Positions 1,767 to 6,610 of a stretch of DNA of 8,392 nt are shown in pieces. The stretch is taken from NCBI GenBank assembly GCA_900557635.1, contig USTB01000029.1:1-8392 (forward strand), given 5' to 3'. The first letter of the stretch is position 1; every line of letters starts with the position of its first letter. The position numbers and the translations under genes are program-made. This DNA is from an uncultured Eubacteriales bacterium (GTDB taxonomy: Bacteria; Bacillota_A; Clostridia; Oscillospirales; CAG-272). Below the pieces are notes generated by a model that saw only the letters and a list, made by a program, of their open reading frames with translations, made no database searches and was not told where the DNA came from.

Positions 1767-2679
1767 TTACCTGTTCTCTCCGCCCTCCGACCACAGGACA
1801 TCCTTTGCGGCAGGACGGTCGAACTTTTCGCGTCTCTCGCCCGAAAGCCGCATCATGCGGCGCATTTCATCGCGGTCTCCCTCCGCCAGCGCCGTTCTGA
1901 GATGATCGAACTGTGCCGCAAAGCGATCCATTTCGGCAAGCAGAGCATCGCGGTTCCACAAAAACAGCTCGCTCCACATTTCGTCGTTGATCCGCGCGAT
2001 TCGGGTAAGGTCGCGGAAGGAGTCACCCGTATATGCCTCCATGCCGGGCACGTCGCTTGCGCACATCAGAGACACGGCGATACAGTGGGTCAGCTGAGAC
2101 AGGAACGCGATCATGCGGTCATGCGTTGCGGCATCCAGACGGCTGATCCGATAAAATCCGAGTGCCTCTCCCAAGGCTTCGCATTTGCAGATCGACTCCT
2201 GACTGTTCCGCCCGTTCGGCACCATGATATAGTTTGCGCCGTGGAAAACGCTGTCGTCGCTGTACTGTACGCCGCTGCGTTCCCGTCCCGCCATGGGGTG
2301 CGCGGCAATGAATTCCACGCCCTGCGGCATCGCGTTCTGCACCGTCTCAATGATACTGCCCTTCACGCCCGTCACATCGGTGACAAGGGTGCCCGCACGC
2401 AGATATTTACCGTTTTGGGTCACCCAGTCGATGAGGGTGTGCGGATACAGCGCCAGCACCACGATATCCGCCTCGCCGAGCCAATCCGTGCGCACCGCAG
2501 TGTCCCTCCGCAAGGAAGCCGTGCTCCACGGCGTAGTCGATGTCCTCCTGCCGTTTCGTGACGGCGCGCACGCGAAAGCCCTGTTTGGTCAGCGCCTTCG
2601 CGTAGCTTCCGCCGATCAGTCCCAAGCCCACAATGAGAATGTTCTCCGTATTTTTCAGTGCCGTATTTTCCGTTTTCAT
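1767..2679 (-). pseudogene. tyrA: Prephenate dehydrogenase with one apparent frameshift
   Basis: NAD(P)-dependent oxidative decarboxylation of prephenate to 4-hydroxyphenylpyruvate, the committed step to tyrosine. The first part (start 2679 to about 2508) has the Rossmann motif GLGLIGGS at residues 18-25. The remaining part, in another frame (about 2507-1767), carries TDVTGVKGS, the family hallmark HPMAG (2286-2300), SQLTHCIAVS and DSFRDLTRIA. Removing one base from the CCC run at 2504-2506 (plus strand) joins the two frames as LAE-DTAVRTDWLGEAD and gives 303 aa, normal for TyrA without an ACT domain. Apart from this one-base surplus the gene looks intact, so a sequencing error or very recent mutation is likely. 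The start ATG 2677-2679 has GAGG 9 nt upstream. It is preceded by a tyrosine attenuator leader and ends 5 nt from the convergent truncated MocR gene, with no terminator between. Confidence 0.88.
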
Positions 2680-2764
2680 GTCTTAAAACCTCATTTTTCC
2701 CGATTTTCTCCGTCCGTTTTGCCGTTCCGCATGCGCCGTCCCCGAACAAGGATACCCAAAATAC

Positions 2765-2824
2765 AAAAAAGAAAGCCCGCACCGTGCGTAAACCCGTGTT
2801 ACGACTGTGCGGACTTTCTTTTTT
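2765..2824 (-). terminator. Intrinsic terminator of the tyrA attenuator
   Basis: On the minus strand AAAAAAGAAAG-t-CCGCAC (2824 to 2807) pairs with GTGCGG-g-CTTTCTTTTTT (2782 to 2765). That gives 17 base pairs around one mismatch, ending in a T6 tract. A further 5-bp stem (CGTAA/TTACG, 2787-2803) lies in the apical part. The stem is also T-rich on the plus strand, so it could act in both directions, but no plus-strand gene needs it. Its position 86 nt before the tyrA start, downstream of tyrA's own promoter, marks it as an attenuator rather than a simple end-of-gene terminator. Confidence 0.88.
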
Positions 2825-2867
2825 ATGCAAGCGGATCGGAATTTGCCGACGGCGAAAAACCGTCTGT

Positions 2868-2933
2868 TCAGCTTTCCCGATTCGGGACAGAAAGACCACA
2901 CAGACGGCAATAATATCGACCTGCGTACATCAT
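2868..2933 (-). CDS. tyrA leader peptide (21 aa, Tyr-rich)
   Basis: Short ORF beginning MMYAGRYYCRLC and ending at TGA 2868-2870. Codons 3, 7 and 8 are Tyr (TAC, TAT, TAT), the tandem pair lying at 2910-2915. AGGA at 9 nt before the first ATG (2931-2933) is a plausible ribosome binding site; a second ATG follows immediately. It starts about 33 nt after the predicted transcription start of a perfect consensus promoter. The stop codon directly abuts the distal half of an RNA stem whose proximal half lies in the codons after Tyr-Tyr. This is the geometry of trp/phe/his-type leader peptides, whose translation is the signal and whose product has no other role. Three Tyr in 21 residues upstream of the tyrosine-specific dehydrogenase makes chance unlikely. 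Confidence 0.8.
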   Translation of the reverse strand: MMYAGRYYCRLCGLSVPNRES

Positions 2934-2972
2934 AGCGGCAATTCCTGTCCTTTCCGATTCGTTTCTGATGTC

Positions 2973-3001
2973 ATTATAGCGCGCAAATTGCCGTTTGTCA
3001 A
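2973..3001 (-). promoter_or_regulatory. Perfect consensus promoter of tyrA
   Basis: On the minus strand TTGACA (2996-3001), a 17-nt spacer and TATAAT (2973-2978) match the sigma-A/sigma-70 consensus at every position. The transcription start is expected near A2966. It drives the tyrosine attenuator leader and tyrA. A promoter this strong needs downstream or operator control, and both are present here: an overlapping inverted repeat and the attenuator. Confidence 0.9.
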
Positions 3002-3020
3002 GAGAAAAACGGCAATTTGC
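2983..3020. repeat. 14-bp inverted repeat over the tyrA promoter (candidate operator)
   Basis: GCAAATTGCCGTTT (2983-2996) and AAACGGCAATTTGC (3007-3020) are perfect inverted copies separated by 10 nt. One arm fills most of the spacer between -35 and -10, and the other lies just upstream of the -35, so a dimer bound here would block RNA polymerase. The distal copy contains the internal palindrome GGCAATTTGCC. The transcript of the upstream ligase could also fold here, but no T-tract follows on the minus strand, so a terminator role is unlikely. Confidence 0.65.
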
Positions 3021-3064
3021 CACAAAACGCGTAAACTTTTTTGTACCGAATGCACAAGCACGCG

Positions 3065-4427
3065 TCATGCATGCCGAATGACCTTGCCGGTGCAGGTTCG
3101 GGGCAGACTGTCGAGCAGTTCGATCTCGGACGGCACCTGAAAGGAGGGCAGGCACTGTACGCACAGATGCTTGACCTCGGCGGCGTCTGCAAAATCTCCC
3201 GAAATGCGCAAGCCGATGCGTGTTCCGAAGGGGTGCGGGACGGCGTATGCCACAGCATCGTGTACCCTTCGGTCGCGTTTGAGCGCGTTCTCGATCTCGG
3301 ACGGAAAAATGTTCATCCCCGCCCGAATGATCAAGTCGTCCGCCCGTCCCATGATGCGGAGGCAGCCCGCCTCATTCTTCTGTGCCAGATCGCCCGTACA
3401 CAGCCAGCCGTCCCGCAGTACCCGTTTTGTCGTCTCGGGATCGCGGTAATAGCCCGCCATCACGTTGTCGCCGCGCACATACAGCATGCCCGTTTCCCCC
3501 GCCTGCGCTTCCCTGCCATCCTTTTTGACAATCCTGACCGAGACCGATCTCAGCGGAAGCCCCACATATTCCGGATACTGCGAAAACAGGTCGGGCGGCA
3601 GATATGCCACGCGCGGACATGCCTCGGTCAGCCCGTACACATGATAGATCCGTGCCGCAGGAAAGCACGCCCGCAGGATACTGGCATTTTGCGCCGTGAG
3701 GCATTCCCCGCTGACCGCGACGTGCCGCAGGGCTGTGACGGGACGGCCGTGCGACATGCGCGCCATCATGGAGAGCAGTGTGGGCGTCCCGCCAAGCACC
3801 GTGATCCCCCGCGCGCAGATTTCCCGCAGGAGTGCAGCGGGGTTCAGCTCCCCACTGTAAAAGCAGACGGCACTGCCGCGCACGAGGGCTGTGAGAAATT
3901 CTCCGGTGAGGACGGCGCAGTGATACAGGGGGCGCGCGATAAGCACCCGGTCGTCGGGCGTGATCCCGAAATAGTCCGCGATATCCCGCACGTTTGTAAG
4001 AATATTGCACTCGGTGAGCATGCTTCCCTTAGGCTTTCCCGTAGTACCCGAGGTACACATGATGAGCGCGGGATGCACCTCGGGCGGCACATACTGACCG
4101 TGCAGAAACGGCTTGACATGTGCCGCCCCGCCTTCATCGCAGATCACAGTATCGGGTAGAACGGTGTTCAAGATTCCGTGGCAGTGTGTCATGCCGCGCC
4201 GGCAGGGGCAGTGCCGTCACGCCCGCCGCAAAGCAGGCAAGCAGGGCGATCGCCGCATTCAGCTCCGAATGACAGAACAGCGCACAGCACTGCTTCCCGC
4301 GCAGTTCCTCCGCCTGCTTTTCCGCAAGTCCGATCATCTCGGCATAGGTCAGACGGCGCGCACCCTCTTCTACGGTTTGTCGGGGATGCGCTTCCATTTT
4401 TGCGCGAAGCTCTTCCCAAAGCGTCAT
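3065..4427 (-). pseudogene. AMP-forming acyl-ACP/CoA ligase-like enzyme, frameshifted at an AC repeat
   Basis: ANL-superfamily adenylating enzyme: activates a carboxylic acid as acyl-AMP and passes it to a thiol, here probably the phosphopantetheine of the ACP encoded just upstream. Core motifs are all present: SGTTGKPKG (4025-4051), YGLTEACPRV, GDLAQKNEAG, GRADDLIIRAGMNIFPSEIE and the C-terminal catalytic lysine in TGKVIRHA. The N-terminal 81 codons (4427 to about 4185) and the rest are in different frames. Adding one AC to the ACACAC run near 4181-4187 restores ARHDTHCHGIL, matching the usual R-x-x-x-THC pattern of the family, and gives a 454-aa protein. Start chosen at ATG 4425-4427 because GGAGG (4436-4440) lies 8 nt before it; a GTG at 4443-4445 overlapping the ACP stop has no such site. 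This could be a sequencing error, slippage or decay. The substrate is unknown. Confidence 0.85.
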
Positions 4428-4435
4428 AGGCTGTT

Positions 4436-4440
4436 CCTCC
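4436..4440 (-). promoter_or_regulatory. Ribosome binding site deciding the ligase start
   Basis: GGAGG on the minus strand, 8 nt before ATG 4425-4427 and lying just past the ACP stop codon. It favours this ATG over the in-frame GTG at 4443-4445, and implies that ribosomes finishing the ACP can reinitiate on the ligase. Confidence 0.7.
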
Positions 4441-4441
4441 G

Positions 4442-4678
4442 TCACGCCTCGGCGCGGTACTTTTCAACCAGTGCCGAAACGTCCGCTACCGTGAGCAGTG
4501 TCATGGGGTCCATATCGGATTCCTCCAGCGTGATGCCGTATGCATCCTCGATCGCCAGAAGCAGATTGACCATCGCCAGACTGTCCAGTCCGAGGTCGCC
4601 TTGCAGGGAGTCGCTTTCCCCGAAGGTGTCAAGACCGCTCAGCTCTCTGAGGATCTTTTGCAGTTTTTCGTCAGTCAT
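4442..4678 (-). CDS. Stand-alone acyl carrier protein
   Basis: Acidic 78-aa carrier protein. The phosphopantetheine attachment serine is S33 in GDLGLDSLAMV, followed by the usual helix II/III pattern (LLLAIEDAYGITLEESD...LTVADVSALVEKY). It is a complete ACP in size and motif but sits apart from any fatty-acid synthesis genes. Instead it lies between a kinase-like gene (8-nt overlap, ATG inside the kinase's last codons) and an adenylating enzyme starting 15 nt downstream. That arrangement points to a dedicated carrier for one activated acid, like BtrI or DltC, rather than the housekeeping AcpP. Which acid it carries cannot be read from the sequence. The GGA-rich stretch upstream is a modest ribosome binding site, so translational coupling to the kinase gene is likely. 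Confidence 0.93.
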   Translation of the reverse strand: MTDEKLQKILRELSGLDTFGESDSLQGDLGLDSLAMVNLLLAIEDAYGITLEESDMDPMTLLTVADVSALVEKYRAEA

Positions 4679-6424: not shown

Positions 6425-6431
6425 ACGGGGT

Positions 6432-6594
6432 CCTCACTGCGCCCCGCCCGCCCCCGGGGAGACGTCAGCCGAACGGCTGACTGACGCCTCGGCGCGCTTG
6501 ATATCGCTCCGTTTTCCGTTATACAGCGGCGCCGAGACGTCTCGGGCACGGCGTGCCGTGCCCAACTCCCCGGGGGCGGGCGGGTAAAGTGAGG
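6432..6594. repeat. Cloverleaf-shaped palindromic element (four-way junction)
   Basis: A GC-rich 163-nt block, almost all of which pairs. The closing stem is 6443-6461 with 6566-6584 (19/19 bp), extended outward across a small internal loop by CCTCACT/AGTGAGG (6432-6438 with 6588-6594). Inside are three perfect hairpins: GTCAGCCG/CGGCTGAC (6464-6481), GACG-c-CTCGGCGC/GCGCCGAG-a-CGTC (6483-6541, 12 bp and one mismatch, with a 33-nt AT-richer loop), and GGGCACGGC/GCCGTGCCC (6544-6563). Only one or two unpaired bases separate the arms. It lies between two convergent genes, just after the small regulator's stop. It could be a structured RNA in the regulator's 3' end or a non-autonomous palindromic repeat element; I do not recognise a named family, and no coding sequence is supported. 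Confidence 0.75.
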
Positions 6595-6610
6595 CACAGA
6601 CGTTCCCAAA

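Follow-up and report, generated by a model that had tools for sequence, protein, structure and literature searches.

The leader upstream of tyrA (prephenate dehydrogenase) in the 8,392-nt stretch of DNA analysed here (the window) is predicted, with a probability of about 0.8, to be a Tyr-responsive, ribosome-mediated transcription attenuator, and to represent, at a tyrA that stands alone, a Tyr-only variant within a family of Phe/Tyr leaders. The gene starts at 2679 on the minus strand, and the leader precedes tyrA alone. The features of the leader and the two parts of the gene are listed below.

3001-2973, minus strand: sigma-70-type promoter TTGACA-17-TATAAT (consensus match 12/12)
2983-2999 and 3004-3020: inverted repeat bracketing the -35 box, a possible operator (17-nt arms, 94% complementary)
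2943-2946, minus strand: AGGA, probably where the ribosome binds to translate the leader ORF (9 nt 5' of the first ATG)
2933-2868, minus strand: leader ORF MMYAGRYYCRLCGLSVPNRES, 21 codons, stop TGA (aligns with the leader ORFs of L225 and L226)
2925-2927, minus strand: Tyr codon 3 of the leader ORF (by reading the sequence)
2910-2915, minus strand: Tyr codons 7 and 8, the proposed stall site (sequence and ribosome-position folding model)
2889-2906, minus strand: segment A, the putative antiterminator strand within the ORF (inverted repeat, 83% over 18 nt)
2860-2867, minus strand: segment 2, immediately past the stop, pairing with 2907-2900 as a protector stem (8/8)
2804-2824, minus strand: terminator 5' arm (T5), the second partner of segment A (inverted repeat)
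2765-2785, minus strand: terminator 3' arm (T3), ending in a T-rich run (inverted repeat)
2407-2679, minus strand: tyrA 5' part up to the frame break (ORF and intact homologue)
1767-2513, minus strand: tyrA 3' part in a different frame (PDH_N and PDH_C domains)

Promoter, ribosome binding site, a peptide with Tyr at positions 3, 7 and 8, a stem and a terminator follow one another in the order described in the earlier note, all of whose coordinates and counts hold. The leader peptide contains Tyr but no Phe, with Cys at 9 and 12 and Arg at 6 and 10. The protector stem is formed by CCGTCTGT (2907-2900) and ACAGACGG (2867-2860), and its 5' half starts just past the Tyr-Tyr codons. Between the leader ORF and tyrA sits an intrinsic terminator with arms of 21 nt each (2824-2804 and 2785-2765), which are 90% complementary and followed by a T-rich tail (-34.2 kcal/mol). 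The previously described pairing of codons 11-15 with the terminator 5' arm was reproduced on the sequence, with A:T5 (2902-2889 with 2819-2806) pairing at 13/14 positions including one GU. The 5' part of segment A is also able to pair with segment 2, and two overlapping pairings, one with segment 2 and the other with T5, compete for the leader codons right after Tyr-Tyr.

A chance origin of this anatomy is unlikely. The leader fold had a z of -4.5, with 0/200 shuffles equally good. When dinucleotides were shuffled, 3/5000 sequences equalled the leader in its pairing to the terminator arm, and 0/5000 contained an ATG ORF behind an SD with three or more Tyr, YY among them. For the post-stop pairing of the tyrA leader alone, the shuffle p was 0.08. 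When the peptide was held fixed and synonymous codons were redrawn (5000 draws), the terminator-arm pairing was equally good in 924/5000 draws, indicating that the peptide sequence itself largely dictates this fit, while the post-stop pairing was equally good in 156/5000 and both pairings at once in 26/5000.

A shortage of charged tRNA-Tyr is predicted to raise transcription of tyrA through this leader. RNA polymerase would start near 2966, and a trailing ribosome would translate the 21-codon leader. When Tyr is short, the ribosome would stall at Tyr 7/8 and cover the 5' part of segment A, blocking its pairing with segment 2 and keeping the 3' part of segment A free; this free part would then pair with the emerging T5, no terminator would form, and tyrA would be transcribed. 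When Tyr is ample, the ribosome would pass over segment A and leave at the stop, and with segment A masked, or folded with segment 2 or the SD region, the terminator would form. The anatomy, the competing pairings and leaders built alike in relatives are observed, and from there we infer translation, stalling, the Tyr response and readthrough of the tyrA leader.

In the ribosome-position folding model of the tyrA leader, the assumed footprint covered 17 nt upstream of the first base of the A-site codon and 13 nt counted from that base, and expected pairs were computed before the terminator 3' arm is transcribed. A ribosome placed with its A site at Tyr codon 3, 7 or 8 left 14.9, 12.5 and 9.8 expected A:T5 pairs, respectively, and one at codon 16 left zero. 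For a ribosome paused at the stop, 15.7 A:T5 pairs were expected, and in the absence of the ribosome 7.5 A:T5 pairs and 3.0 pairs of segment A with segment 2, indicating that quick release at the stop would be required. The full terminator, once complete, prevailed in every ribosome state of the model, which would fit a kinetically determined choice. In the minimum-energy fold, segment A, as read by eye, also pairs with the SD region of the leader itself, which is a possible brake when the leader is untranslated.

Phe/Tyr leader ORFs were observed at the heads of pheA operons in relatives. Among five loci read further upstream, four (L221-L224) had a one-direction run of genes reaching tyrA, the order of which we take from N-terminal sequences to be pheA, aroB, aroC, aroE, aroQ (in three), aroA and tyrA, and an F/Y-rich ORF was located at the operon head in these 4/5 loci (e.g., MMIVLTNRFYYYHHCGLSAYAELG and MMNTSYRFYYYSWGYLFNSARSAR). 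The pheA search gave matches in 154/196 genomes of the family, and upstream stretches of 0.2 to 2.2 kb were collected from 91 close and 19 divergent pheA matches, in which pheA was located in 91 and 16, respectively. An SD-preceded ATG ORF was counted as a leader if it was 10-40 aa long and had 4 or more aromatics within 7 residues. At the close pheA loci, 36/91 had such a leader in the forward direction, compared with 2 in reverse and 1-3 in five shuffles, and with at least 5 aromatics the numbers were 24 forward, 2 reverse and 0-1 shuffled. No leader was counted by the ORF criterion at the other 55/91 close loci, and 0 forward leaders and 1 reverse were found at the 16 divergent-pheA loci. 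Extending the upstream stretch at 20 loci, 19 of which lacked a counted leader, brought up only the known leader of the twentieth. The class-wide pheA scan gave 3/22 forward leaders with at least 5 aromatics (0 reverse, 0-1 shuffled) and again 3/22 with at least 4 (1 reverse, 0-2 shuffled). Both Phe and Tyr were present in 37/37 collected leaders, and Trp also in 3, these leaders having been chosen for aromatic runs and all lying upstream of pheA; among them, the F/Y run is constant while Cys and Arg vary. Most of these F/Y short ORFs are presumably unannotated. A further F/Y-rich candidate, MSMSYFFRFYFNKIGLPVFLKH, was seen at L230, at about -345 from pheA, and stands outside the count (weaker SD or other start codon).

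The upstream regions of tyrA itself were examined at 80 of 210 confirmed genomic loci, 56-69% identical to the tyrA of the contig and mainly from MAGs labelled Clostridia, Oscillospiraceae or Lachnospiraceae, on which the placement of the contig in Bacillota is based; further TyrA proteins 70-89% identical (P0002-P0015) were present in the protein database, and the highest identity among the sampled genomes was 66% (G006). In 178/199 tyrA loci, some of which are duplicates, an ORF of 150 aa or more on the same strand ended at most 60 nt from tyrA. At 14/80 loci, a short ORF upstream of tyrA carried two Tyr codons adjacent or nearly so; two of these loci (L065 and L073) had a terminator-like site, with the ORF overlapping the upstream gene (gap -11). 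The 14 loci with a tyrA gap of more than 150 nt or without an upstream ORF in the sequence gave weak candidates only, including one at L012 (-128), and the F/Y leader scan of the 80 tyrA loci, up to 5 kb upstream, gave 2 matches and 0 in reverse. A leader of this type directly on tyrA was not found in any relative scanned, so that the conserved Tyr-codon leader on related tyrA genes, proposed earlier as a check, was not recovered; the genera of G006 (3 genomes) and G734 (1 genome) gave nothing new.

Because the leader has no Phe, it is to be regarded as a variant and not as a typical member of the Phe/Tyr family. It is probably a variant of the family heading pheA operons and not an isolated invention. 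The proposal that a peptide-based Tyr attenuator controls tyrA is supported by the anatomy and by the F/Y leaders of relatives, with a presumed Tyr response.

Judged from sequence comparison, relatives carry putative competing pairings and terminators before the aromatic operon. A clear terminator past the ORF was found by scan in 23/37 collected leaders. Pairing tests were applied in turn with a narrow T5 arm, a wider post-stop window and a partner swap, and all three are reported here. With the short arm, the A:T5 test was significant in 4/24 leaders, the tyrA leader included. In the post-stop window, the codons past the aromatic run paired with the RNA past the stop better than shuffled sequences (mean z -0.96, Wilcoxon p 7e-6; 37 leaders, with the tyrA leader left out and shared ancestry ignored), and with the tyrA leader added, 6/38 leaders had p < 0.05 singly, the tyrA leader itself having p 0.08. 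Leaders also paired better with their own partners than with swapped ones (p 1e-4; 37 leaders including the tyrA leader, ancestry ignored). In subgroups, this pairing extends into the terminator 5' arm: in one, GCG and TGG of GCGATGGA pair with CGC and CCA of CCACCGC without variation (7/7), and in another GGRCTG-CCCGT pairs with ACGG-CAGTCC, with 76/80 cells paired versus 26-43% when slid. As to the covariation suggested earlier as a check, the aggregate pairing and swap tests gave positive results, but within the GGRCTG-CCCGT subgroup there was one double change, equalled in 54/500 shuffles.

The closest link was observed with the leaders L225 (G006) and L226 (G734), with which the tyrA leader was aligned by MAFFT from promoter to stop, and not at the terminator; the aligned regions comprise the promoters, the aromatic codons, segment A and the stop. 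The aligned peptides are RYYCRLCGLS in the tyrA leader, RFYYYHHCGLS in L225 and RFYYCRQSGFS in L226, and the A:T5 pairings read by eye are TGTGG-T-CTTTCT/AGAAAG-T-CCGCACA, TGCGG-C-CTTTC/GAAAG-CCGCA and GCGG-T-TTTTC/GAGAG-T-CCGC, respectively. In constrained folding, 7.9-11.6 A:T5 pairs were expected in L225 with the ribosome on the aromatic run (codons 8-11) and none at codon 19, and 8.5-11.3 were expected in L226 with the ribosome at codons 9-11 and none at codons 17 and 20. Without the ribosome, the expected A:T5 pairs were 0.3 in L226 and 10.4 in L225, and with the ribosome at the stop they were 1.1 and 9.7, respectively. An antiterminator common to the tyrA leader, L225 and L226 is thus predicted by the models, with clean switching modelled for L226 only. 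The post-stop stem had 0.0 expected pairs in both L225 and L226; the post-Tyr stem reported earlier is present in the tyrA leader at 8/8 positions, but relatives support it less than the antiterminator. For R1, a covariance model of one subgroup, the best match within the window was the tyrA terminator region (E 0.042, with the opposite strand at E 0.12); L225 and L226 had no match to R1 at E <= 1, and the held-out L061, L363, L228, L238 and L243 were matched at E <= 1e-6.

T-box control of the tyrA leader was rejected, with no match to RF00230 at E <= 1 across the whole window. No Rfam family reached the gathering score in the window, and Thr_leader was matched twice below threshold (E 0.027 and 0.15; 29.3 and 26.1 bits vs. 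a gathering score of 55), each time over the terminator hairpin and once per strand. No Rfam elements were found in the tyrA-upstream loci L001-L012. T-boxes were found in 58/59 sampled genomes of the family, and near the aromatic operon in 3/5 loci, each more than 2 kb from pheA; in 20 longer pheA-upstream stretches one T-box was found, at L353, preceding another gene, and none was seen at pheA operon heads in the loci scanned. The contrast drawn in the earlier note, between T-box control of most aromatic amino acid genes in the phylum and no T-box signature here, therefore holds.

Control of tyrA mainly by a DNA-binding repressor that occupies the inverted repeat, with the ORF and terminator being a relic or setting a basal level, would fit the arms at 2983-2999 and 3004-3020, which flank the -35 box 4 nt apart and share a 14-nt core with 0 mismatches between them. 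This is unlikely, however, since promoter and ORF are arranged alike in L225 and L226 with, by eye, no such repeat around their promoters, and a relic would not be expected to retain an ORF with its Tyr codons along with the two pairings. Repressor control and attenuation at tyrA could coexist.

An attenuator sensing Cys (9, 12), Arg (6, 10) or general translation speed in place of Tyr is suggested by the Cys and Arg codons flanking the Tyr pair, but is very improbable given the constancy of the F/Y run upstream of aromatic synthesis genes (37/37 with both residues), where Cys and Arg vary. Likewise, little probability is given to a terminator acting alone or under control of a protein or ligand, with the short ORF untranslated or irrelevant: the strong terminator and the alternative folds already seen without a ribosome in the model are consistent with it, whereas the occurrence of an SD-preceded Tyr-run ORF in 0/5000 shuffles, the enrichment of F/Y leader ORFs in relatives and the lack of any Rfam family at gathering score argue against it.

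In the contig, the tyrA frame is broken between the overlapping ORFs 2679-2407 and 2513-1767 (overlap 2407-2513). An intact 304-aa TyrA protein with 99% identity (P0001) is present in the protein database, indicating that the break reflects a sequencing error or recent decay. The AMP-binding ligase at 3065-4445 is likewise split across two overlapping ORFs in different frames, a further sign of indels in the contig. Convergent with tyrA, a MocR-type regulator (GntR and aminotransferase domain) is encoded at 685-1761 and looks truncated, with its aminotransferase match ending at profile position 248/361. A long GC-rich inverted repeat was seen by eye at 6430-6595, directly past a short HTH-domain ORF, and TTGCCG was present in 20 copies in the whole window vs. 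8.2 expected (0/200 shuffles), 7 of them within 2719-3089.

Leader-peptide attenuators of the trpL and pheL type are found in amino acid operons of Proteobacteria. Compared by plan and not by homology, the tyrA leader has in common with them a short ORF with codons for the regulated amino acid, a terminator and an alternative antiterminator, and differs in its Tyr codons, in the stand-alone tyrA, and in an antiterminator strand that lies inside the ORF and is predicted to pair directly with the terminator 5' arm. Among the matches listed in the open-licence literature without supplements (titles and starts of abstracts), no Tyr leader-peptide attenuator of tyrA was present, and the excerpt of PMC11109978 contained nothing on Tyr leader attenuation of tyrA. 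F/Y uORFs at shikimate genes are already in print, in that a figure legend of PMC6429828 describes two such candidates containing Phe and Tyr, Clostridium novyi being one of the five genomes analysed there; compared by this legend description only, these too are Phe/Tyr uORFs upstream of shikimate genes. A passage on Acholeplasma describes uORFC-13-1 upstream of aroF, with a Phe codon and a terminator (PMC8632094), which resembles the tyrA leader in placing a uORF and terminator before an aromatic gene and differs in Phe, in aroF and in the class of organism, Tyr being unnamed in that passage. According to excerpts, leader-peptide attenuators of amino acid operons are present in Actinobacteria (PMC1262725), and His leader peptides were reported at his genes in Bacillota (PMC2965389, PMC9413887), the latter likewise being leader peptides in the T-box phylum, with His codons and his genes. 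In part of PMC2494555, a Tyr T-box is described for the B. cereus group, on an operon for making tyrosine; its physiological input and output are the same, but the RNA (RF00230) reads the tRNA directly.

The absence of Phe from the leader of a separate tyrA suggests that the codons of a leader match the genes behind it, although a single case is no proof. With somewhat less than even odds, a T-box-rich clade of Clostridia may hold an aromatic supraoperon under Phe/Tyr attenuation, the leader copy of a separate tyrA having lost Phe so as to sense Tyr alone, in a compact design where the leader codons are themselves the antiterminator strand. If this is true, Tyr would become a further amino acid with a leader-peptide sensor, and T-box-rich Clostridia of gut and rumen would read aromatic supply by the ribosome at this operon. 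With many diverged leaders, the retuning of a sensor by codon swaps as operons break up would become testable.
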